IMG/VR virus record: IMGVR_UViG_3300025309_000047
Span: 1-26,235 of that record
DNA: 26,235 nt
Source: a virus
Reading direction: 5' to 3' (one strand)
Positions 3,863-26,007 of the stretch are shown one piece after another (position 1 is the first letter of the stretch; every line of letters starts with the position of its first letter). The notes under the pieces are model-generated. The model was given only the letters and a program-made list of their open reading frames with translations. It was not told where the DNA came from and made no database searches. Made by a program: the position numbers and the translations under genes.

Positions 3863-6800
3863 TTATTTCCGCTCTTCAGCGTTCTGTATTTTATTGTTTA
3901 ACTCGTCCAAATCTTCACCTTCGATATCCGTTTTTAACATGTATTTATCAATTTTGCTTTCGTAAATATCACGAAGTTCATCCCGTTGTGAATCAGTGGC
4001 TTTCGACCAAGCATGAATTGCATTCCCAATATCCAGATTATCAAAAGCGGCCTGTATCGCAGTCATTTCGGTCTGCTTTTCGATGTTGGATTGTTCTTTT
4101 GGAGACATGGAGTCAAAAACGGTTTGTTGATCCGGTAATAACGGCTTACCGTTTCTGATCCGACTTATTATATCCCGTTTTTGTTTGCTTACGTCGCTGT
4201 ATGAATTGGCGTTGATACCTATTAAGTCAACCAGTACCCCAGCTACCTTATCGGCGGAAACATCGTCTTTCGCTTTTATGGCATTCTGCAGGCTTATTGG
4301 TGTGAAAGCGCGATAAGTAGCGTTGCCCCCTGTAAATGGCTCGCCTTCCCTATCTTTACCTTTCAGCCAGCTTACCACGACGCTGGTAGTGGGAGGGGTT
4401 TTATTGGTGATGAAATCAATCAATGCATCAAATAGAGTCCTTTGCCCAAAACCTGTACCATATTCGGTGACAAGGCCGGTCTGCGTATTTTTTGACGAAT
4501 TGGTTAAAAGCCTCGCTGCAAGAGTTACGATTGAAGCCGCGCCGCCTGTAATGTCGAAGCGGGTTTCTCCTACCTTGATCTTTCCGAAATCGGTGCTTTT
4601 TGGATCCAACTCCGCGCTACCAGGTTTGAGAGCGTTTGCGATAGACATTAGCGTGGCGGTTTCGGCGACGATCTTAAGCAGATTCACAACGGCTTCTTTG
4701 CGGGCAAATTTGCTTTCTAGTCCCGCTGTAAAGTTATGAGCGGTCAATACATCAATATTACCTTTCAGCATTTTGGGCGCCCATAGAATAAGTCTTATAG
4801 CACCGGACTGCCCACGGTTCCCCCATTGCCCCCTTGATGTTAGGGAGTTGATGAGTTTTCCAAGGCTTTCAGCTTGTGCCTTGTTGGTCATATCGACGCC
4901 GTTTTCCTTGGCCTTGGTGGAAAGCAAGTCGTAAAGATCCGTTCTCATTCTCATACCGCTACCGGTAAAGGCTGCTTCGGATGCTTTAAAAACTCTTCCG
5001 ATTACGGGGATACGTTCCGGTAACGTAGTAGGAAACTGTTCTTCCGTAAGTGCGATAATTTTCGCTCTTTGGTATTCGCCGTTAAGATAATTGGGGCGCG
5101 ACACAATATCGGCCATCATCGCGTCATGGGCGTTTTTGCCTCCAAGAGTATTGGCAAAGTCCGAGAATGATGCTTTTGCACCCGGCCACCAAGCCGAAGG
5201 ATGGGTCATTAAGGTTTTTAAGCCCTGTCTGCCTAAAAATGAGTTATCAAGGGAAGCTACCATTGCAATAGAGTTATCGGTGATGGTCTTCAATGCCCCC
5301 GTCCCGGCGTCCCATACCGCTTTTGACTTGTTGTCCTGCCATGTTGTTTTCAACTCTTGTGCGTGGTTCTTTAACAAAGTCTTTATAGAAGCGTTCGCGC
5401 CTTTTAGGTCGTTTACGTAGTTTTCGTAAGCCACCCTTGCAGCACCATAGTCCAGGCGGTTGCCGCCGCTCTCAATGGCGTCTCGTGCGTCTGAGGCTAT
5501 TTTTGACAAACGGACGATCTGCGCGGCTTCTTCTTTCGATACCGTACCCATTGCACTTTGGGCTGACTGGAAGTTTTCCTTTGCCCTGTCGCGTTCGGCT
5601 TTTAACTTCTTGCCTTGCGCGTCAAGGGTAACGGGCGTTCTTTCCTTCTTGGCAAAATCACCGTCGGCAAGGGCTTTTTCGAGTCTCGCGGTTTCGTTGG
5701 TAATGCGGGTTTTAAAGGACTGCAAACGTGCCGCTTCGGGGTCTTTCGGCGGCTTAGCGTCCTTTTGCATCTGTTTGTATTCTTCGTTCAGTTTATCAAG
5801 TTGCGACTGCTTCTCGGAAATTTCAGGCGTCCGTGGTGTGGCTCTCTGTTTCTTATTCGGTTCAAGGTCGTGTTCATCAATCCGGCGCTGTTTCTCCGCA
5901 ATGGCTTTATCGAGTGCTTTCTCTTTGGCCTTGATCTGCTTTTCCGTGTCAGCCATGAACTTTTTGCCAGCGGTTATCAAAGGGTCTTCGTCGGGGACAC
6001 CCTTCTTTTTCATCTCTTCGAGTAAGGTCTTTTTCTCCTGCCACTTGGTACGGAGGGCGTCGCGTTCGGCGGCAAGCTTGGTTGCCTCTTCGTCGTACTT
6101 GACCGCTTCTTTTTTAGCCAGTTCCCTGCCGGTTTCTATCTGTCTTTTGAGGTCGGCAATCTGATTTTTAAGAGCGGTCTTTCTGGCGTCCTGCGCAGTT
6201 TTCCATTGTTCTTCCGGTGATTTGGTGGAGTCAACATCAAGACCACTTTCCCGCATGGCCTGCTTGACTTCTTTCTGCAGTTCGCGAACCTTGTCGCTTA
6301 CGGGGTCGCGTTGGAGCCCTGACCGTTGGGGGGATTCGCCACCTTGTGCATCTTCGAGAGCCGAAACCAAACGCGCCTGGCGTTTCAATTCCCTTAACTG
6401 GATATTGATTTCGTCCTGGCTCATCTTCGAGGTTTCGCCATAACCTGAAATAGCGTCCCTTATCTCACGTTTCGAAACGCCTTTGATAAAGCGTTGTACT
6501 TCGCTGTGGACTGAATCAACAACACCTTCCACGGTGAGGACACCGGCTTTAATCCGATTCTTTGCCATTTCGACAAGCACCGGGATAGCTGCGGGGTCAA
6601 TACCAACATTCAATTTATTGGGGTTCAGGATGGAATTGAGTTTGCTAGTCAGGTCTTTAAATTCAGCATCAAGCGCGGCTCTGCTTGACTGTCTGGTAGT
6701 CTTACGGGTAGTTTTGGCTATTTCGGTGACAACCTGCTTATGCACCTTTTCGGCGTGCTTCTTGGCAAGTTCCTCTTCGTAGGATGTAAGTTTGGTTTGT

Positions 6801-8434
6801 GCCTCGTCCAGCTTGGCGGTAAGTTCGTCAATTTTGGCGGTTGATTCGGGAGACAGGCCTTGCTTTTTGGCGTTTTCTTTCCGGTCCGCAATGACTTCCT
6901 GAATATCCCTTACAGGGTCCATATTAAGACGAGAGTCAGCCGCTTTGATGGCCTGGCCGTACTCAGTTAGCCTTGTTGGAACGGTTGACTCTGTGGCGAG
7001 TTTGCGGACGGTTTCAACGTCACCTTCCTTAATAGCCCTGATCTTGACCGCTTCATACATAGTGGCTTCACGTACGCCTTCTGGGGGTAATTCTTCACCC
7101 ATAGCCATACGTTTAGCGGCTTCATAGTCGGCTTCCATGATATAAGTAGCGCGGTCGGCCTGGTCTTTCATGGACATGGTTTTGTATTCGGGAAGTGCGC
7201 CGAAATCTTTCGTCAGTTTGGCTTCGATGGCGTCAGCTTCGGCCCGTTGGGCAAGTCGGCTTTCGTTGGTTTCCGGTTTTGGTGTTTCTTCAGGTTTTCC
7301 TTCCGCCACCTTTTCTGCTTCAATCTTTGTTTCGATATCCCTTACCGACGGCTTACTGTCTACGCTCATATCCTTGATATGCTCAGGCGTGATATGTTCC
7401 GCGTTGGCGGCTATATCTGAAACAGGTATTTCAACCGGCTTATCGGTGAATTTTGCCTCATGATACTGTGTCGTATCGGTCAGCACTTCTTCCGGTTTCA
7501 GTTTCTTTTCCGCCAGTAGTGAATCAAACTTTTCAACCGGCATGGTGACGGTAGGCATTTCGCCTGCAGAGGCAGTAAAGTCTTTGAACGTCTCAACGTC
7601 CCGCTTGGCAAGTTTGGATTCTTTGGCTACGTTGACTATATCAAGAATCTTGTTAGCATTCGCATCTGAGATAGTAGCGGGTCTTTCGGCTATTCCGCTA
7701 TGAACTGCCTTGCCAAATACCACCCAAGGAGCGAATTCTCCGGCCACCTGGACGCCTGCGTAAGTATTCGGAAAGTTGCGCTTGAATGTGTCACCTGTCG
7801 CGGCGTCTATCGCGTCTACGGCGGCAGGAATAGCGGTCATTATCTTACCGGTTGCATCGACCTGCTGTTTGCCTGATTCTGTCTGGGGTTGATAAATCTG
7901 TACACCAAGATTCTCGTGAAACTTATCCGAAATACCAGAAAGTGTCGGCATACGCTCGTTGACGATCGCCCCGGCTATTTCCGCCCCTGTGCTGCCAATG
8001 ATATTTGGGATTGCCGTTAGCGTCATTGCGCCCAACTGAGTGACTTGGTTTGCCACGTTTTCCGCTATGCCAACGATATTTTTACCGGCACCCTTCAAAG
8101 CGGTCAAAGCGGTTTCCACTTTGGTCAGTTTCGGATGATCGTCGTAAGATATCTTGGCGTTTTCTGGGTTGGAAAGGAAAGCGGCTGTATAGGGTGAATT
8201 GTCAACTAGCCTGCTAAAGTCGTCCATCAGAATGCTAGCATCTTCCCAACTCGACGGACGTTTGGCGGGTGCGGCTAACGCAACCGGCAGACCGCGCTTA
8301 ATCGTTTTGTTGCGATTAGCGGCGTACTGGTCAGGGTTGGTATCGTGTGCAATCAGTGCCGACTTGGTTAAAGCCGACTTGGTTGCGTTAGAGTCTTCCT
8401 CGTCAAATTGTGCAAGTAAATCTTCGACTGACAC
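3863..8434 (-). CDS. Giant internal virion protein (T7 gp16-like position; large polyvalent-type)
   Basis: The protein has 1523 residues. Its GTG start overlaps the TAG of the upstream gene (TAGTG), with AAGGAAGG before it. Order and size match the third T7-like ejectosome protein, which leaves the capsid and helps form the DNA channel across the cell envelope. About residues 111-155 form a weakly hydrophobic, glycine-rich stretch. About 510-1000 are very rich in Lys, Glu and Ala and look like long coiled coils. From about 1060 a globular region starts (NSFLGRQGL, then LTSRGQWGNRGQSGAIRLI near 1200) like the conserved C-terminal parts of large polyvalent phage proteins. No lytic transglycosylase motif, as found at the N-terminus of T7 gp16, was recognised. 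Confidence 0.82.
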   Translation of the reverse strand: MSVEDLLAQFDEEDSNATKSALTKSALIAHDTNPDQYAANRNKTIKRGLPVALAAPAKRPSSWEDASILMDDFSRLVDNSPYTAAFLSNPENAKISYDDHPKLTKVETALTALKGAGKNIVGIAENVANQVTQLGAMTLTAIPNIIGSTGAEIAGAIVNERMPTLSGISDKFHENLGVQIYQPQTESGKQQVDATGKIMTAIPAAVDAIDAATGDTFKRNFPNTYAGVQVAGEFAPWVVFGKAVHSGIAERPATISDANANKILDIVNVAKESKLAKRDVETFKDFTASAGEMPTVTMPVEKFDSLLAEKKLKPEEVLTDTTQYHEAKFTDKPVEIPVSDIAANAEHITPEHIKDMSVDSKPSVRDIETKIEAEKVAEGKPEETPKPETNESRLAQRAEADAIEAKLTKDFGALPEYKTMSMKDQADRATYIMEADYEAAKRMAMGEELPPEGVREATMYEAVKIRAIKEGDVETVRKLATESTVPTRLTEYGQAIKAADSRLNMDPVRDIQEVIADRKENAKKQGLSPESTAKIDELTAKLDEAQTKLTSYEEELAKKHAEKVHKQVVTEIAKTTRKTTRQSSRAALDAEFKDLTSKLNSILNPNKLNVGIDPAAIPVLVEMAKNRIKAGVLTVEGVVDSVHSEVQRFIKGVSKREIRDAISGYGETSKMSQDEINIQLRELKRQARLVSALEDAQGGESPQRSGLQRDPVSDKVRELQKEVKQAMRESGLDVDSTKSPEEQWKTAQDARKTALKNQIADLKRQIETGRELAKKEAVKYDEEATKLAAERDALRTKWQEKKTLLEEMKKKGVPDEDPLITAGKKFMADTEKQIKAKEKALDKAIAEKQRRIDEHDLEPNKKQRATPRTPEISEKQSQLDKLNEEYKQMQKDAKPPKDPEAARLQSFKTRITNETARLEKALADGDFAKKERTPVTLDAQGKKLKAERDRAKENFQSAQSAMGTVSKEEAAQIVRLSKIASDARDAIESGGNRLDYGAARVAYENYVNDLKGANASIKTLLKNHAQELKTTWQDNKSKAVWDAGTGALKTITDNSIAMVASLDNSFLGRQGLKTLMTHPSAWWPGAKASFSDFANTLGGKNAHDAMMADIVSRPNYLNGEYQRAKIIALTEEQFPTTLPERIPVIGRVFKASEAAFTGSGMRMRTDLYDLLSTKAKENGVDMTNKAQAESLGKLINSLTSRGQWGNRGQSGAIRLILWAPKMLKGNIDVLTAHNFTAGLESKFARKEAVVNLLKIVAETATLMSIANALKPGSAELDPKSTDFGKIKVGETRFDITGGAASIVTLAARLLTNSSKNTQTGLVTEYGTGFGQRTLFDALIDFITNKTPPTTSVVVSWLKGKDREGEPFTGGNATYRAFTPISLQNAIKAKDDVSADKVAGVLVDLIGINANSYSDVSKQKRDIISRIRNGKPLLPDQQTVFDSMSPKEQSNIEKQTEMTAIQAAFDNLDIGNAIHAWSKATDSQRDELRDIYESKIDKYMLKTDIEGEDLDELNNKIQNAEERK

Positions 8435-10152
8435 TATTTGCCTTCCTTCAATAGTTCATTGTAAAGGGCTACTCTTCGTTCACGAGAAAATGTTTTACCG
8501 CGCTTTTTCTCCAATGCATCGATCTTGGCGGCATAATCTGCCGGGATGTCGACGGGTTTGTCTTCCTTGCCTATTTCAATTTTGCGCTTGAGCTTTTTAC
8601 CTCCAAATAGTCCTGGCTCTTTCACAAAGTCCAATTGCATGTTCTCGACTATGGCCGTTTGTGCTTCTGCCGGTGAAAGTGGTGATCCTTTGCGTTTCTG
8701 GGCTGCGGCAATGGCACTTTTGTTCTTGGTGAAATACTTGGCTTTTTCGGAATCGTCCAATCCTGGTATTTTGTCCAAAACATTGTTGATGGTTGCTGCG
8801 TGAGTAGTTGCGTCTCTTAATGCTTCCGGTGTCGAGGCTTTCTTGCGGTCATCCTGCAAGTGGGCGAACTGTTTATCACCCATTTCGAGCCGTAATGCTT
8901 TAAATTCGTTTTCAGGCATAGCAGCAAATAATTCAGGGCGCGAACGGTAATAGTAATAGGATGCATCGTACCGTTGCTGTGTTGCTGCCGCTGCTGCCGC
9001 GTCTGCGCTTCGTTCTGCCGCTACTGCACTCCGTTCGCTTGCGCGTGTCGCGCGTTCCGTGGTGTCTCTGTGTTCGATCTTCTGCCGTATTTTGGCGAGA
9101 ACGTTGCCCTGTTGTGCGATAGTCAGATTTGTAAATTCCGGCATTTTCATGATAGTGGTTGTGGTTAGTTTCGGGTTAACTTCCCACGCATCAGCGATTT
9201 TGCCATAGTTATAATCGAATCGTTCTTTGCCAGCAGCGGCACGATCGGCGGCCAACGATTTTAATTCGGTTCTTACCAGTTTCCGCAAATCGGTATCGGC
9301 AGTTTTCTTGTTGACCTCAGCCATTAACTTGTCGATTTCAAAAGGTGCGTCAAGGTCTTTCGGCATTAAAGGGGTTAATTCGCTGATAACACTGTCCACC
9401 TGTGAAGCTTGGAGTTTGGGCTTAATTTTGGTGTCGAATTCCTGTAGTCGTTCTTTAGTGAGGTATTTATTAAACGTACCCGATTTGATAAGTTCCATAG
9501 CGGCTAAAGGGTTGCGATTAACAACTCCGTCCAGATAGGAATCAGCAATAGCCGACTGACCGGCTACGAGTTTGTTTTCCTTGTCGGTCGGTCTTAACCT
9601 GGGATCGTTTATAATGGACGTGTTGTAGATATTGAGGTTATCGTCAAGCGTCCCGAATCCCTGATAAGCCGATTTCGAAGCACTGGCAAGTGCGCCGATT
9701 CGGGTATCCTCCGCAACCGCATCGCGTTGTTTGGCTTCGTGGCTAGAAAGGCTATTCTTTATTTTAAGGGTTTGCGATTCTATATGTTGAGAAACATCAA
9801 ACTTTTGCCGCTCATCGGTGAGATCTTTGGTATATTTTCCAACAGCCGACTTTTTCCATTCGTCTGCCCATTCCATGCTATTGAAAGCGTCTGTCCCCTT
9901 ACGAGACAGGCTGTCTTTTTCAAAGTTCAAGGCTTCTTCATTTACCAGTGTTCCTATCCGTTGCGTCGAGTAATATTGTTCCTCTTTTTTAATCTCTTGC
10001 TGACGTTTAAGAAGGGTATTGCCAAGATCGCCAATAACCACAGCAGCCCCGGCAAGGGCATTCGGTACTGCTTGCTCACCGAAAGACCCGCCTACGTTCG
10101 GTCCTTGTCCTGATACGGTGCCTTGTCTCTGATATGTCGGGATACGTGGCAT
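8434..10152 (-). CDS. Internal virion protein, T7 gp15-like position
   Basis: The protein has 572 residues. Its ATG overlaps the preceding TAA (TAATG). It lies between the small gp14-like protein and the giant gp16-like protein, the standard order of podoviral internal core or ejectosome genes, and its size fits the middle member. It is largely alpha-helical and charged. A short low-complexity stretch near residues 370-395 is rich in Arg, Ser and Ala (ERSAVAAERSADAAAAAA). No enzyme motif is visible. The assignment rests on synteny, length and composition rather than a diagnostic motif. It would be packaged inside the capsid and ejected with the genome. Confidence 0.75.
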   Translation of the reverse strand: MPRIPTYQRQGTVSGQGPNVGGSFGEQAVPNALAGAAVVIGDLGNTLLKRQQEIKKEEQYYSTQRIGTLVNEEALNFEKDSLSRKGTDAFNSMEWADEWKKSAVGKYTKDLTDERQKFDVSQHIESQTLKIKNSLSSHEAKQRDAVAEDTRIGALASASKSAYQGFGTLDDNLNIYNTSIINDPRLRPTDKENKLVAGQSAIADSYLDGVVNRNPLAAMELIKSGTFNKYLTKERLQEFDTKIKPKLQASQVDSVISELTPLMPKDLDAPFEIDKLMAEVNKKTADTDLRKLVRTELKSLAADRAAAGKERFDYNYGKIADAWEVNPKLTTTTIMKMPEFTNLTIAQQGNVLAKIRQKIEHRDTTERATRASERSAVAAERSADAAAAAATQQRYDASYYYYRSRPELFAAMPENEFKALRLEMGDKQFAHLQDDRKKASTPEALRDATTHAATINNVLDKIPGLDDSEKAKYFTKNKSAIAAAQKRKGSPLSPAEAQTAIVENMQLDFVKEPGLFGGKKLKRKIEIGKEDKPVDIPADYAAKIDALEKKRGKTFSRERRVALYNELLKEGK

Positions 10153-20756: not shown

Positions 20757-20996
20757 TTAAGCCCCTAATAGGGTTTTTTGCTGATTCTGATCGGTAGCCA
20801 TTGGTGTCAGGATAGTTGATTGCCGCCCACGGCGCTTGCTGGCGAGTTCTTTTTCCTTGCGCAACGCTTCTTGCACTGAGGGATCTTCCAGTTTCGGGGC
20901 TGGTTTATATGGTTGTACCGGGGGAGGTCCCCCACCGCAAGCGAACAGCGGGAATAGCATCACTGATTTGATGATAAATATGATTTTTTTTAACAT
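20757..20996 (-). CDS. Small phage lipoprotein between terminase and portal
   Basis: The protein has 79 residues. A lipobox LFAC places the lipidated Cys at residue 20 after a basic and hydrophobic start (MLKKIIFIIKSVMLFPLF). The mature part is proline-rich (GGGPPPVQPYKPAPK). Next come a charged helix (DPSVQEALRKEKELASKRRG) and a C-terminus with STILT and KTLLGA. I recognise the STILT...KTLLG ending from small proteins next to terminase and portal genes in many podoviruses; most are of unknown role. The ATG overlaps the acetyltransferase gene by seven bases, with GAGGA upstream. A role in superinfection exclusion is possible if it is truly lipidated. Confidence 0.75.
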   Translation of the reverse strand: MLKKIIFIIKSVMLFPLFACGGGPPPVQPYKPAPKLEDPSVQEALRKEKELASKRRGRQSTILTPMATDQNQQKTLLGA

Positions 20997-21469
20997 TGTT
21001 TAGTCCTCATTGATTGTTTTCCTATAATCATCACGTACATTCCACCAACGGGATCAAAACCAATTCTCTGATATAATTTGCCCGTAGCTTCTTGATTAAC
21101 TCCGGTGGTCTGATTCAGGAATATCAACTCAGCGCCAAGAGATTTTGACCATTCGATGTATTCCTTGACGAGCCTTAAAAACGCTGTGCCGCCTCTATGC
21201 TCCGGTGAGACGAAAACAAGGATATCACTAGCAATTAACGATTGGCCAAACTCGTACTCAAACACCTGGCCTGCCATCATGCCTGTTATTGTCTCGCCTT
21301 TGATCGTCACCCAGCACCGGATTTGGGGATTTACGAGTGCATCGTTACATTTCGCTATTACTTTATCGGGGGAAAAATGAAGGTAGGAGTATTGTGACTC
21401 ATCATGCATGAGTCTTCCAAGGTGGATAATTTGGGGGATATCTGCTTCCGTGAGTTGCCGAATATCCAT
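20990..21469 (-). CDS. GNAT-family N-acetyltransferase
   Basis: The protein has 159 residues. It shows the GNAT fold: MDIRQLTEADIPQIIHL at the start, then a strand and acetyl-CoA-binding loop with motif A DILVFVSPEHRGGTAFLRLV (residues 82-101). LYQRIGFDPVGGMYVMII follows near the end, the typical GF of motif B. It should transfer an acetyl group to an amine; the substrate is unknown. Such genes are common next to terminase and portal genes in podoviruses and may modify host or virion proteins. It is the first gene after a candidate promoter. Confidence 0.85.
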   Translation of the reverse strand: MDIRQLTEADIPQIIHLGRLMHDESQYSYLHFSPDKVIAKCNDALVNPQIRCWVTIKGETITGMMAGQVFEYEFGQSLIASDILVFVSPEHRGGTAFLRLVKEYIEWSKSLGAELIFLNQTTGVNQEATGKLYQRIGFDPVGGMYVMIIGKQSMRTKQC

Positions 21470-21527: not shown

Positions 21528-22889
21528 TTAATCGAATGGGGACCATGCTTCTGCCTGTTTTGTATTGCCGGTTGCTGCAGCCCTAAAACGCTCTGCTAAT
21601 TGCGGCGTGTAGCCAACAGCAAACGTACGGAATGAATCGGCACCGTGTGATTCCCAGCTATGTAATGGCCTGTTGCCGAGTTTCTTTTTGACTTCATCAT
21701 ATTCGGCCCTATAGCCCTCTAGTGCCGATATACCCTTTGCACACTTCTCAGCATCGAACCAGCACAACGGCAGGATCATACGCACTGCGGGAATATGCAC
21801 GTTGATGATTACATCCATGTTCTTTGCGCGGGGGACGACTTCAATCGGCCTGATTCCTAATGATTCGGCAATCTCTTTGCGGCTTTTGGCTATCTCCCCG
21901 CTTCCCATCTCACGCTGTTCTGCGTCATGCGGCATCCAGTGATTGCCGTAATTGTATCCACGATCTTTCAACACTTTCGCGTAATGTTCAAGCCCAAATC
22001 CGGTGTTTTCATAGTAGTCTATCACATGGAATGATTTACCTACCGGCTGGACGAACCAAATCGTCATTGAATCGTCAACACCTAAATCCCAGAACGTGTC
22101 GACCTCTGTGCCGGTCTGGTACGGTACGCGGGTAATTCTGAACTCTTGTCTTGCGGCTGTCATTTGCTTCGAGTAATAGGCTCCTGGTACACATCCCTCA
22201 AATGAGCAGTTGTATTCCTGATTATAAAGCGCTTCGCCTTCGTTGTCGCCATAGATTGAGATCAATCCCGCGCGGATGTTGAGCAATTGTTTTTGCGTGA
22301 ATACACCGGTACTATCAGCCGTGAGTAGTTCAGCGAACCAATCAGGGTGCTGCATAGCATGATCATACATCGTCTTGCCGTGGTTCGCTCCCCTCGGAGT
22401 GTAGGGGAATATCGCCCACCCGCCGTTTTCCTCTAGTATCGGCTCAATGAAGCCCCACGCTCTAGGATCAGCTAGGGACCATTCGGAGAATACAACACCG
22501 CGAGGTGGAGATCCTACCAACGCATTGAAATTATCAGAGCCGACAATGTGCCAGACCGCACCGCCTACCAGCTCTATTTTCATTTCCTGCTGATTGGTTT
22601 TTGTTCTGATCTCTAAAGGAAATGCCTCATCGATGCGTTTCTTGCCTGTATGGGGGTTGACTGCATCCCAGATAGCGCGCCGACCGTGAGAGTATTCCGG
22701 CATCATGTGCCAGTAGTTGCCTGGGTTCTGGATAGCGTCGCAGGCCGTCCAGTGAAGTGCCACTTCATCTTTTCCGGCTCTTCTGTGCCAAACTTCAACA
22801 GCGCGCTTGCCGCCGTTTTCGAGGTATGACCATGTTGGGAGTTGATACGGTCTGGGACGCCAGTTGTTTGGGAGAGTGATTTTAGCCAT
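21528..22889 (-). CDS. terL: Terminase large subunit (DNA packaging ATPase/nuclease)
   Basis: The protein has 453 residues. The ATPase half has the Walker A variant HRRAGKD (35-41), Walker B VVFSE (132-136) and a coupling-type motif YTPRG (163-167). The nuclease half has acidic residues expected of the RNase H-like fold: FWDLG (D268), MPHDAEQ (D322) and HGADSF (D418). It cuts concatemeric DNA and pumps it into the procapsid through the portal. The ATG overlaps the TAA of the upstream open frame (TAATG), so translation is probably coupled to that frame, which holds the CRISPR mini-array. No small terminase subunit is recognised nearby. Confidence 0.93.
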   Translation of the reverse strand: MAKITLPNNWRPRPYQLPTWSYLENGGKRAVEVWHRRAGKDEVALHWTACDAIQNPGNYWHMMPEYSHGRRAIWDAVNPHTGKKRIDEAFPLEIRTKTNQQEMKIELVGGAVWHIVGSDNFNALVGSPPRGVVFSEWSLADPRAWGFIEPILEENGGWAIFPYTPRGANHGKTMYDHAMQHPDWFAELLTADSTGVFTQKQLLNIRAGLISIYGDNEGEALYNQEYNCSFEGCVPGAYYSKQMTAARQEFRITRVPYQTGTEVDTFWDLGVDDSMTIWFVQPVGKSFHVIDYYENTGFGLEHYAKVLKDRGYNYGNHWMPHDAEQREMGSGEIAKSRKEIAESLGIRPIEVVPRAKNMDVIINVHIPAVRMILPLCWFDAEKCAKGISALEGYRAEYDEVKKKLGNRPLHSWESHGADSFRTFAVGYTPQLAERFRAAATGNTKQAEAWSPFD

Positions 22890-23230
22890 TAGACATCTTC
22901 TTCAATGCAAGACATCGCATTCATTGTCAAGACCTGCCTGATAACGTTTGTCGCATGTTCCAAAGATGATTTGAACCACTCAGAACCTTTTTTCCACGGG
23001 CTTATGCATTCTGTTCCCCGCATGCGCGGGGATGAACCGCGCACGCCGGTCTCGGCGGTGCGCTCGTCGGCCTGTTCCCCGCATGCGCGGGGATGAACCG
23101 TATGTTCCCTTCTGCGAATGATGCGCAGTGTGCTGTTCCCCGCATGCGCGGGGATGAACCGGCATAGGGCTGTCGCAGGGCCATCAAACTTGATGCGTTC
23201 TTGTATTGCTTTTAGTTCTTTTGGGGTCAT
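22889..23230 (-). CDS. 113-codon open frame spanning the CRISPR array; chimeric or disrupted terminase-upstream gene
   Basis: The ATG at 23230 has GAGG five bases upstream, so translation is plausible. The first 23 codons (MTPKELKAIQERIKFDGPAT and three more) look like genuine coding sequence. The next 50 codons are antisense CRISPR repeat/spacer (RFIPAHAGN, VHPRACGEQ and SSPRMRGT are the three reading frames of one repeat). The last ~40 (WKKGSEWFKSSLEHATNVIR onwards) again look like real protein and end in a TAA that overlaps the terminase ATG. A longer start at 23320 lies inside the methyltransferase gene and is unlikely. The real product may be two fragments of an older gene, perhaps at the small terminase position, or a short peptide. 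As one functional protein it is doubtful. Confidence 0.4.
   Translation of the reverse strand: MTPKELKAIQERIKFDGPATALCRFIPAHAGNSTLRIIRRREHTVHPRACGEQADERTAETGVRGSSPRMRGTECISPWKKGSEWFKSSLEHATNVIRQVLTMNAMSCIEEDV
23011..23161 (+). CRISPR. Phage-borne type I-E-like mini CRISPR array (3 repeats, 2 spacers)
   Basis: Three identical 29-base repeats lie at 23011-23039, 23072-23100 and 23133-23161. They start CTGTTCCCCGC and end GCGGGGATGAACCG. Two spacers of exactly 32 bases lie at 23040-23071 and 23101-23132. Repeat length, 61-base period and the CCCCGC/GCGGGG hairpin with a four-base loop are diagnostic of type I-E. By comparison with the E. coli repeat, crRNA polarity is the plus strand, opposite to all phage genes. 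No cas1, cas2, cas3, cas6e or Cascade gene is in the window, and no obvious leader promoter precedes the array. Spacer 1 is about 81% G+C; spacer 2 is 50%. I found no match to either spacer elsewhere in the window. Confidence 0.96.
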
Positions 23231-23276
23231 GTTGGCCTCATAGTACAAAAGTGATGGATTTTGGTGACGGTTTGTA

Positions 23277-24230
23277 TTAGCCAAACAATGTAGTTTGTTC
23301 GTGTTCTTCGACTTCGGCAAAGCTCACGTTTTTAACGGCCTGCCGGTAATAGGATTCTTTAAGCTCAAACCCAATACCTCTGCGACCAAGAGAAACAGCC
23401 CCATATACTTCCGACCCAACACCCATAAATGGGGTCAATACAACCTCGCCGGGATTAGTCCTTAATGTGATAGCACGTTCAATAACATCCAGTTGCAAAG
23501 GATGCACATGCTTTTCATCGTCGGTGTCCCTTGCCGGACGATAAGGCAATACTCGTTCGATTCGTATATCATCCCAGAAGGAAGAAGCATATTGCCTCCA
23601 TATCCAATGAGAAAAACGGTTCTCGGTTTGTTTCCCTTCGTGGCCTTTATAACACTGAATTTCTTGAGGCATTACCCGTTCGCCAATGTAGTTCAATAAA
23701 CCAACTGGATGAGAAACAGGTATAGGGTTATCACCTTTGTTCCTGAATAAAAGAAGATAATCCATTGAAGCGATACCGCACAGGCTTGAATCGATAGTAA
23801 GAGTTTGGTGGGCAAGATTCTTTTGCATGGTTCTTAATCTCACGGCCAGTGGTTCTTTCCATATGCCATGCCTGCCGATATATTCAAGACCGTGTTTTTG
23901 ATGAAGACGGATAATGTCACCAGGGAAGTCGTTATAACTATCCCTTCCACAATTGCTATTAGGCGTATCCATGCAATGAACCGCCGACAACCTTCCCGGA
24001 AGGGTGATACGGGCAATCTCTTTAACCACAAACTCGTAATGCTCAAAAAATTGATCGTAGCTGTCGCAGTTCGACAAATCTTGTTCATGCGAACTGTATT
24101 GATACAACCCGCAGAAAGGCGGCGAATATATGGTGAAGTGTACCGATTTGTCGGGCAAACCCTTCATCCCTTGGACACAATCAGAATTATATAGTGCGTA
24201 TTTATCAGTTACCGTTTGGTTTATTACCAC
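23277..24230 (-). CDS. DNA methyltransferase, beta-class (N4-cytosine or N6-adenine)
   Basis: The protein has 317 residues from a GTG at 24230 with GGAGG seven bases upstream; the start lies 26 bases inside the HNH gene. The catalytic motif IV is SPPF (36-39) and comes before the AdoMet-binding motif I region LTPFMGVGSE (265-274), followed by GIGFELKESYY. This order (IV before I) marks beta-type amino-methyltransferases. It would methylate the phage DNA, probably against host restriction. The target sequence cannot be read from the protein. A helicase and HNH gene lie just upstream, a neighbourhood often seen in phages. Confidence 0.88.
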   Translation of the reverse strand: MVINQTVTDKYALYNSDCVQGMKGLPDKSVHFTIYSPPFCGLYQYSSHEQDLSNCDSYDQFFEHYEFVVKEIARITLPGRLSAVHCMDTPNSNCGRDSYNDFPGDIIRLHQKHGLEYIGRHGIWKEPLAVRLRTMQKNLAHQTLTIDSSLCGIASMDYLLLFRNKGDNPIPVSHPVGLLNYIGERVMPQEIQCYKGHEGKQTENRFSHWIWRQYASSFWDDIRIERVLPYRPARDTDDEKHVHPLQLDVIERAITLRTNPGEVVLTPFMGVGSEVYGAVSLGRRGIGFELKESYYRQAVKNVSFAEVEEHEQTTLFG

Positions 24231-24588
24231 GGTTGCGCCTCCCTAAATTATGTTTTTTCATGTGCCATAAAATGGCTGCATGTGTTACCCCGAAGACCTC
24301 TGCTATCCCATATAAGGTCATGGTTTTATACATAGTAATTAATTCGTCTTTGGTTACATTTATTTTTGATTTAAATTGTGTACCTGCCCCTATTTCTCTA
24401 TGTAGCTTTTTGTGATCGCTCCGTGTTGTCAATTCTAGATTATCTATACTGTTGTCGTTTACATCGTCGTTTTTGTGGTGTACTAATTCCGAAGAGAGCA
24501 GTTTTCTACCTAAATAATTCTCCATCACATACCTGTGTTTCCTAACTTGCCTTCCATCAACCTGAACACTAGGATAATACTTATACAT
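24205..24588 (-). CDS. HNH endonuclease with C-terminal DNA-binding helix-turn-helix
   Basis: The protein has 127 residues, with an AGGGGG-containing site upstream of the ATG. The HNH core is visible as ELVHHKNDDVNDNSIDNLEL (residues 34-53), with the HH pair at 37-38 and the later Asn residues. It is preceded by the usual RKHRYVMENYLGRKL region. The C-terminus (LITMYKTMTLYGIAEVFGVT, then HAAILWHMKKHNLG) is a helix-turn-helix-like DNA-binding end. This is the architecture of free-standing phage homing endonucleases. It sits between helicase and methyltransferase genes and overlaps the latter by 26 bases. Composition is more AT-rich than its neighbours, consistent with recent insertion. Confidence 0.88.
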   Translation of the reverse strand: MYKYYPSVQVDGRQVRKHRYVMENYLGRKLLSSELVHHKNDDVNDNSIDNLELTTRSDHKKLHREIGAGTQFKSKINVTKDELITMYKTMTLYGIAEVFGVTHAAILWHMKKHNLGRRNRGNKPNGN

Positions 24589-24639: not shown

Positions 24640-26007
24640 TTACAATAAAAATGATGGAACCTCCATTTTTCGATTGAATGACTTTTTATTGTCAATTTTG
24701 AGTACGTTGTTCATTTCGGCAATCAGGCTGTTAAACATTTCGTCGGCCTGTTTTGCTTTACGCTGCAAGTTGGCTAAAACTCTATGCTCACCCTCAGTAG
24801 TGATAACATCGACCTTTACAGGACGTTTTTGGCCAAATCTCCAACACCTTCGGATAGCCTGATAATATTGCTCGAAAGAATGAGATGGAAATGAAGTCAT
24901 GTGATTGCAATGCTGGAAATTTAAACCCCAAGCCCCTATGACAGGCTTGACAACCAGTACTCTATATTCACCATTCACAAAGTCCATCAGTTTCTTTTCC
25001 TTCTTTTCATCACCATCTTTGCCGGATACCTGCACCGAATCTGGAATCAATTTCTCCAGTAAATCCCCTTCGTCGTTCATGTGACACCACACTATTGCAT
25101 AATCACCGGTATCATTAACGAGGCTAGCGGCCTTCTCACATCGTTCTTGGACAGATCTTCTTCGTTCCTCTCGTTGTTCCTTCATACCAACAGCAGGAAG
25201 GGCAAAAAGCATATCCGGTGCAAGCTTTCGAGCTTCTACCACATGTTCCGATTCGGTCAATTCAGGGAGAATAAAATCACCGTCTTCATAACCCATATCC
25301 GATGGTTTTCTTATGGCCCTTGACCATGAAGCGACCCATCTCCAAAAAGCTTGTTTTGCGTGTCCTTTCAATCTCCACTTGATTACCTCTCCGCCGATTC
25401 TGCCGGTTGAACTATTGTTGAGGTCGTTTTTAAAAAACTTGTTCAGCATGTCCATGTGTCCCATGTATCCTAAAACTTCGCTGGACGTTCCAAGTTCAGG
25501 AAAATCATTAGGAGAAGGCGTGGCAGTAGCAAGTAAGCGGTATTGTACCTTGCGCATAAATATGGTGATTTCGAGTCTCATCTTGCCTTTAAAGTTCTTT
25601 AAAATAGAACTCTCATCACATATGACTCCGGTAAAATCCGATGGGTTTAAAAGGTGTAATCTTTCGTAATTGCATACCGTTATGCGGCCTATTTCGCCAT
25701 GATGGGACCGTGTAACATCTATGCCGAATTTAATCCCTTCTTGGACAATTTGAGCGGCGACGGCGCATGTCGTCAAAATCAAAACATTTCCGTTAGTGTG
25801 ACGAGCTACGTTTTCAGCATACACCAATTCAATTAAGGTTTTGCCCATACCGCAATCCGCAAATATTGCAGAACGTCCTTGATTTATAGCGTAATCCACT
25901 AACTCGGATTGAAAATCAAACAGGCAATCCGGCATGAAGTTAGGTTTAAACCCATGCCTATTTCCAAGTTGGCGTTTACTTGATAAAAAAGAATCGTAAT
26001 CATTCAT
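24640..26007 (-). CDS. SNF2/DEAD-type superfamily II helicase
   Basis: The protein has 455 residues, with GGGG upstream of the ATG. Visible motifs: a Q-motif-like Gln at 33, Walker A GMGKT (53-57), motif II DESS (131-134) in place of DEAH, motif III TATP (161-164), and late motifs GAWGLNFQHCN and QAIRRCWRFGQKR, typical of motifs V and VI of SNF2-type translocases. It hydrolyses ATP to move along DNA. Phage homologues often neighbour DNA methyltransferases; their task (recombination, replication restart or remodelling) is not settled. The ATG overlaps the end of the preceding small gene by eight bases. Confidence 0.88.
   Translation of the reverse strand: MNDYDSFLSSKRQLGNRHGFKPNFMPDCLFDFQSELVDYAINQGRSAIFADCGMGKTLIELVYAENVARHTNGNVLILTTCAVAAQIVQEGIKFGIDVTRSHHGEIGRITVCNYERLHLLNPSDFTGVICDESSILKNFKGKMRLEITIFMRKVQYRLLATATPSPNDFPELGTSSEVLGYMGHMDMLNKFFKNDLNNSSTGRIGGEVIKWRLKGHAKQAFWRWVASWSRAIRKPSDMGYEDGDFILPELTESEHVVEARKLAPDMLFALPAVGMKEQREERRRSVQERCEKAASLVNDTGDYAIVWCHMNDEGDLLEKLIPDSVQVSGKDGDEKKEKKLMDFVNGEYRVLVVKPVIGAWGLNFQHCNHMTSFPSHSFEQYYQAIRRCWRFGQKRPVKVDVITTEGEHRVLANLQRKAKQADEMFNSLIAEMNNVLKIDNKKSFNRKMEVPSFLL

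Follow-up and report, generated by a model that had tools for sequence, protein, structure and literature searches.

How phages come to carry leaderless CRISPR mini-arrays, and whether they make any use of them, is the question raised by a small array in the virus record analysed here (26,235 bases, referred to as the window), and also by a comparable array known from two alleles (L208 and L219) of an unrelated phage. Published phage mini-arrays are leaderless, and it has been suggested that their spacers come by recombination with host arrays (PMC6858448, PMC11656645). A sequence-only reading of the window described its array as a cas-less type I-E mini-array that might serve against rival viruses. 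We have examined the structure of the array, its distribution in viruses and bacteria, its junctions with the phage genome and the possible targets of its spacers.

The array and its genomic setting

The main genes of the window lie on the minus strand, and include those for an endolysin, tail fibre and tail proteins, an internal virion protein, a tail tubular protein, the major head protein, a head-tail connector (PF12236) and the terminase, followed by a methyltransferase, an HNH endonuclease and a helicase. The tail-tube and internal virion protein matches would fit a podovirus-like phage. A 1,523-aa protein encoded at 3863-8434 had no match in PHROGs or PADLOC, and a GNAT acetyltransferase gene (20990-21469) of the late region adjoins the terminase gene. 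The array is flanked by phage genes on both sides, as had been described: on its left by the terminase large subunit gene (21528-22889, minus strand), which was assigned from its location and its homology (phrog_2472) with no match in Pfam, and on its right by minus-strand genes assigned through protein family searches to an N6/N4 DNA methyltransferase (23277-24230), an HNH endonuclease (24205-24588) and a DNA helicase (24640-26007). No cas gene matches were found among the phage proteins of this partial contig scanned with PADLOC, PHROGs and Pfam, which bears out the description of the array as cas-less; the locus thus combines repeats of cellular type and two spacers with a virus genome in which no cas genes were found.

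The array occupies 23011-23161 and consists of three 29-nt repeats (CTGTTCCCCGCATGCGCGGGGATGAACCG) that are 100% identical (23011-23039, 23072-23100 and 23133-23161, plus strand). Between them lie two spacers of exactly 32 nt each, i.e. spacer 1 (CGCACGCCGGTCTCGGCGGTGCGCTCGTCGGC, 23040-23071, 81% G+C) and spacer 2 (TATGTTCCCTTCTGCGAATGATGCGCAGTGTG, 23101-23132, 50% G+C), and the repeat-to-repeat period is exactly 61 nt, so that the layout first read from the sequence proved correct to the base. The repeat, with its ATGAACCG handle, folds into a hairpin of -14.3 kcal/mol on both strands alike; together with the spacer length and the period, these are the features expected in type I-E. An exact copy of the 29-mer also occurs at 22 bacterial genome loci, mostly in long arrays and mostly alphaproteobacterial, its carriers being Paracoccus, Donghicola, Xanthobacter, other Rhizobiales, Gemmobacter and a Bdellovibrionales bacterium. 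Type I-E cas genes were checked in four of these genomes and lie beside the repeat: Cse1, Cse2, Cas7, Cas5, Cas6e and Cas1e in L085, Cas6e and Cas1e in L092, Cas7e in L084, and Cas1e in L083. The repeat is therefore a good type I-E repeat, and bacteria with type I-E systems that use exactly this repeat exist; the absence of such a bacterium, one of the two refutations foreseen in the sequence-only reading, is thereby answered. A chance origin is ruled out, as all three 29-mers are perfect, in register and identical to the repeats of bona fide bacterial arrays; the last point also excludes the creation of repeats from phage sequence by off-target Cas1-Cas2 integration. We conclude that the phage carries a genuine mini-array of type I-E that is both leaderless and cas-less.

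The repeat is uncommon: allowing one mismatch at most, it was found in two genomes out of 398 drawn evenly from the phylum, one of the two being the centre genome itself. A host assignment through relatives of the terminase was tried and set aside, as none were found in the 17 repeat-carrying genomes, and matches of 41-52% were found in 11 of the 398 sampled genomes (one phylum).

Presence of the array in a second contig

A single further contig of IMG/VR contains the exact repeat. This 4.3-kb contig (IMG/VR 3300025009_001142, L002) carries the same array with the same spacers and both flanks, and extends 580 bases further. It differs from the window at 3 of 3,745 bases; the three differences cluster in a stretch of ten bases inside the terminase gene (22617-22626), and the other 3.7 kb are identical. 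We count L002 as a second assembly, since a 3.7-kb overlap would be atypical of contigs from one assembly. L002, with the array set between the same two flanks, makes a simple join to a bacterial contig unlikely. Such a join had been named as a possible refutation in the sequence-only reading; so far as it could be tested, that objection fails. Nor does the array belong to a longer host array, since homology to phage sequence starts again at most one base away from the last repeat.

The interrupted gene and the module boundary

Strictly speaking, the array is not intergenic, as a minus-strand open frame of 143 aa (22889-23320) runs through it. This frame is made up of the first 23 codons of a putative HTH gene, the array, and a tail of 39-40 codons whose stop overlaps the terminase start. 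The 23 codons (MTPKELKAIQERIKFDGPATALC, 23162-23230, minus strand) are the remnant of this small putative gene, which the array cuts, and were recognised through an intact homologue, a 106-aa protein encoded at 2947-3267 of contig L106. Our reading of its sequence is that this is a small HTH protein, putatively DNA-binding; it has no Pfam family match. The cut gene and L106 share 88% DNA identity over 124 bp, and the match stops within one base of the last repeat. The distal edge of the array is thus the 3' end of repeat 3, whose final G is also present in the uninterrupted L106 sequence, where the homologue reads CAG, not AAG. The left flank (22889-23010, minus strand) forms the end of the open frame, with WKKGSEWFKSSLEHATNVIRQVLTMNAMSCIEEDV before the stop; for these 122 bases no homologue was found in IMG/VR or among phages, and no empty allele was found for the left junction. 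A close relative of the terminase, L003, has a Terminase_2 small subunit at the corresponding place. The sequence GCAT(T/A) at both edges of the array was considered as a target-site duplication and set aside, the match spanning 4 bp. All three minus-strand frames through the array are open, and hence the array would not need to halt translation toward the terminase.

The relatives of the genes on the two sides do not co-occur. Methyltransferase matches were at best weak in the 38 terminase-relative records searched, and so were terminase matches on the methyltransferase side, in 36 records made up of L106 and 35 relatives of the methyltransferase; furthermore, all four methyltransferase-side records searched for the helicase had it, and it was found neither in the short L106 contig nor in any of the 25 terminase-side records searched. 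This places the array within ~120 bases of a module boundary, and the modules on either side of it are, to judge from these distributions, of different ancestry. The coincidence of array and boundary could be due to chance, as such boundaries are common in phages.

Orientation of the array and targets of its spacers

Type I-E polarity places the crRNA on the plus strand, which is antisense to all the neighbouring genes. A scan of both strands at 22400-23700, which a phage-specific or alternative-sigma promoter would escape, revealed no sigma-70-like promoter, and the 60-70 bases upstream of the array, compared by eye with bacterial leaders of the same repeat, showed no resemblance to them. A plus-strand promoter may conceivably lie further off, for instance inside the terminase gene; as far as can be judged from these features, the array is probably not expressed as crRNA now.

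The spacer search that had been proposed as a check was run on phage, plasmid and genome collections, and gave no credible match. Both spacers were compared with IMG/VR (exact except at every sixth base, five wobble positions), with INPHARED phages and PLSDB plasmids, and with 385-398 sampled genomes at up to three mismatches, and spacer 1 also with the 17 repeat-carrying genomes; in none of these was a credible protospacer found. The best match of spacer 1 (28 of 30 bases) lies in a transporter gene of a Chelatococcus plasmid, with CCG and not AAG at the PAM position. It was rejected as a target, the gene being high in G+C, an AAG PAM being absent and hundreds of weak high-GC matches existing. 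Partial matches of spacer 2, at 17-23 nt, were too short. The G+C content of spacer 1 is above that of any other 32-mer of the window (maximum 75%), and a spacer so much richer in G+C than the phage would not come from the phage itself or from a close relative. When 645 bacterial spacers from repeat-carrying loci were compared with the window, there were only short chance-level matches among the matches listed.

Comparable arrays in other viral contigs

A mechanical scan of IMG/VR for GTTCCCCGCNNNNGCGGGGATGAACCG returned 40 stretches. Besides L002, 29 contigs have at least two type I-E repeats in close register; if arrays that share spacers are counted as one, this makes about 23 distinct arrays. 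By tblastn one of the 29, L226, has type I-E cas genes nearby. A type I-E viral mini-array is therefore less unusual than had been stated, and cas-less type I-E phage mini-arrays are a recurring kind, consistent with the published ones. By mechanical gene calls, the array of the window is alone among the scanned arrays in having the nearest gene antisense on both sides; many of the other viral type I-E arrays lie in sense, just behind a gene. For three other mini-arrays, no empty alleles were found in the phage collection.

The most informative comparator is IMG/VR 3300028357_000036 (L208) with its four sister contigs (L194, L196, L199 and L209), from a phage unrelated to the window. To the left and right of a type I-E array of four spacers, these contigs match L219 at 99.4-99.8% identity; in L208 (8097-8371) the array replaces 2.1 kb of L219 (1597-3718). 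What is lost from the L219-type allele is most of a gene whose translation reads as ParB-methyltransferase-like, and the open frame that follows it. Like the array of the window, the L208-type array is cas-less and of type I-E, replaces part of a gene and has its edges at complete repeats, in this case at both edges. It differs from that of the window in its repeat, in being sense to the replaced gene, in having an empty allele covering both sides, and in having one self-matching spacer. At the distal edge the empty allele of L219 reads GAAG/CATACCC, i.e. AAG, the type I-E PAM, with the G coinciding with the last repeat base. The self-matching spacer (8248-8280 of L208) recurs exactly at 9798-9830, about 1.5 kb away in the same phage, and also at 138-170 of L219. 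The repeat before it ends in A, and an A likewise precedes the genomic copy (TGA, not AAG). The last base of a repeat derives from the prespacer, and the shared A is consistent with this. L196 (2425-2575) has the same flanks as L208 with two spacers in place of four, which suggests loss or gain of repeat-spacer units; L219 has an 8-repeat type I-E array of its own, with a different repeat, at 9661-10121.

In the window as well as in the L208/L219 pair, then, the array sits at a gene-destroying junction, and the resolved edges coincide with complete repeats. By our own estimate, if breakpoints fell anywhere in the 61-nt unit, any one edge would end in a whole repeat in about one of every 30-60 random captures. 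The resolved edges are precise in three of three cases, from two events only, which makes this a lead, not a demonstration.

Origin and possible function of the array

The best explanation, to which we give a probability of roughly 0.55, is that a fragment of a host type I-E array became fixed at a deletion or recombination junction of the phage, truncating the putative HTH gene, and is probably a passenger. A bacterial array fragment (repeat-spacer-repeat-spacer-repeat, with neither leader nor cas genes) would have come from a host array by recombination, possibly with the help of Cas1-Cas2e, because the edges fall on complete repeats, and would have been fixed just upstream of the terminase gene. 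It would be tolerated there because the three open frames on the operon strand keep the terminase region from being shut off by stops. Since the crRNA strand opposes the operon and no promoter is visible, the array is most likely a passenger at present. If the plus strand were transcribed in a host with matching Cas6e and Cascade, it would yield crRNAs with AUGAACCG 5' handles, as in other phage mini-arrays. As a counterpoint, the identical repeats in two contigs could reflect maintenance by selection rather than passenger status.

As a rival reading, it may be a working inter-phage array, whose two spacers, brought in by the phage, host Cas6e and Cascade would process and use against competing phages or plasmids in co-infection. 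Virus-borne cas-less mini-arrays have been shown or proposed to act in this way (PMC6858448, PMC11656645), and the window has both a repeat identical to type I-E host repeats and perfect repeats in two contigs. This use is unlikely, however, for an array that is antisense to the operon, with neither a promoter-like site at 22400-23700 nor a host-like leader, with no credible protospacer in the collections searched, where the best spacer 1 match was the CCG-flanked one in a plasmid, and with a spacer 1 whose G+C content speaks against origin from a close relative; the proposal that the array targets rival viruses has thus gained no support. A viral mini-array need not be a weapon; the one described here runs against its operon, and no target was identified for it. 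Still less probable is an RNA decoy, in which phage-transcribed repeats act as a Racr-like anti-CRISPR occupying Cas6e or Cas7e, or the antisense transcript pairs with host pre-crRNA and blocks its processing. Phage repeat RNAs can be anti-CRISPRs (PMC10651486), and a transcript of the operon would contain the three perfect repeats in antisense, each with the stable hairpin, but Racrs are solitary and often right behind a promoter, whereas here there are three repeats in register with full spacers, antisense and with no promoter-like site in the scanned region, which is not a solitary repeat unit (Racr/SRU); moreover, antisense repeat RNA as an anti-CRISPR is absent from the literature consulted on Racrs and mini-arrays. 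We give the lowest odds to an assembly artefact in which two phage segments were misjoined via a shared or bacterial array. The nearby module boundary, with relatives of the two modules occurring apart, would suit it, as would the array's 151 bp, close to common read lengths, but the same junctions recur in a separate contig with a long overlap and its own cluster of differences, flank-to-array junctions require real reads, and a comparable replacement of a gene by an array is seen in several contigs of the L208 type.

The precise edges raise a further and rather doubtful scheme, namely that Cas1-Cas2 joined phage DNA to repeats. Host enzymes would treat the phage genome as a giant spacer and join its ends to repeats, the PAM-proximal end to a repeat's 3' edge, where the G of the PAM would serve as the final base of the repeat, and the opposite end to a repeat's 5' edge, with the intervening sequence lost; repeat-repeat recombination would then free a phage with n repeats. 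The L208/L219 pair (both edges exact, AAG at the distal one) and the exact distal edge of the window (shared G, CAG in L106) argue for it, and it would, if true, account for the complete repeats at the edges and the gene deletions, as well as for random orientation and the lack of leaders; solitary repeat units would be a further product of it. In the literature on spontaneous array formation we found no directly useful paper. The contrast is testable: accidental recombination should leave ragged edges, and repeat-edge-specific joining by host adaptation proteins precise edges with PAMs.

The host-derived fragment that we favour resembles known systems in part. With the leaderless phage and prophage mini-arrays of Faure et al. 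2019, as far as they are described where cited (PMC6858448, PMC11656645), it shares one to few spacers, cellular repeats and the lack of leader and cas genes; according to those accounts their spacers mostly match related viruses, whereas those of the window have no credible match in the collections searched, and the array of the window interrupts a gene and opposes its operon. The mini-arrays of the Sulfolobales portogloboviruses SPV1 and SPV2 (PMC6858448) likewise have two spacers, are cas-less and would need host machinery, but they are archaeal and intergenic, have promoter-containing leaders and target each other. RNA anti-CRISPRs, or solitary repeat units (PMC10651486), are also phage-borne host-like repeats without cas genes; unlike the array here, they are solitary repeats expressed from a promoter, and arrays were excluded from that search.

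Other type I-E repeats in viral contigs

Two pairs of viral contigs have a cas-less type I-E mini-array in common, namely L214 (3144-3233) with L229 (1922-2011), and L205 with L225, and in both pairs the array is sense to the nearest leader-side gene. In addition, solitary type I-E repeats occur in viral contigs L197, L201, L202, L206, L207, L216, L217 and L228, and these are candidates for solitary repeat units or RNA anti-CRISPRs.
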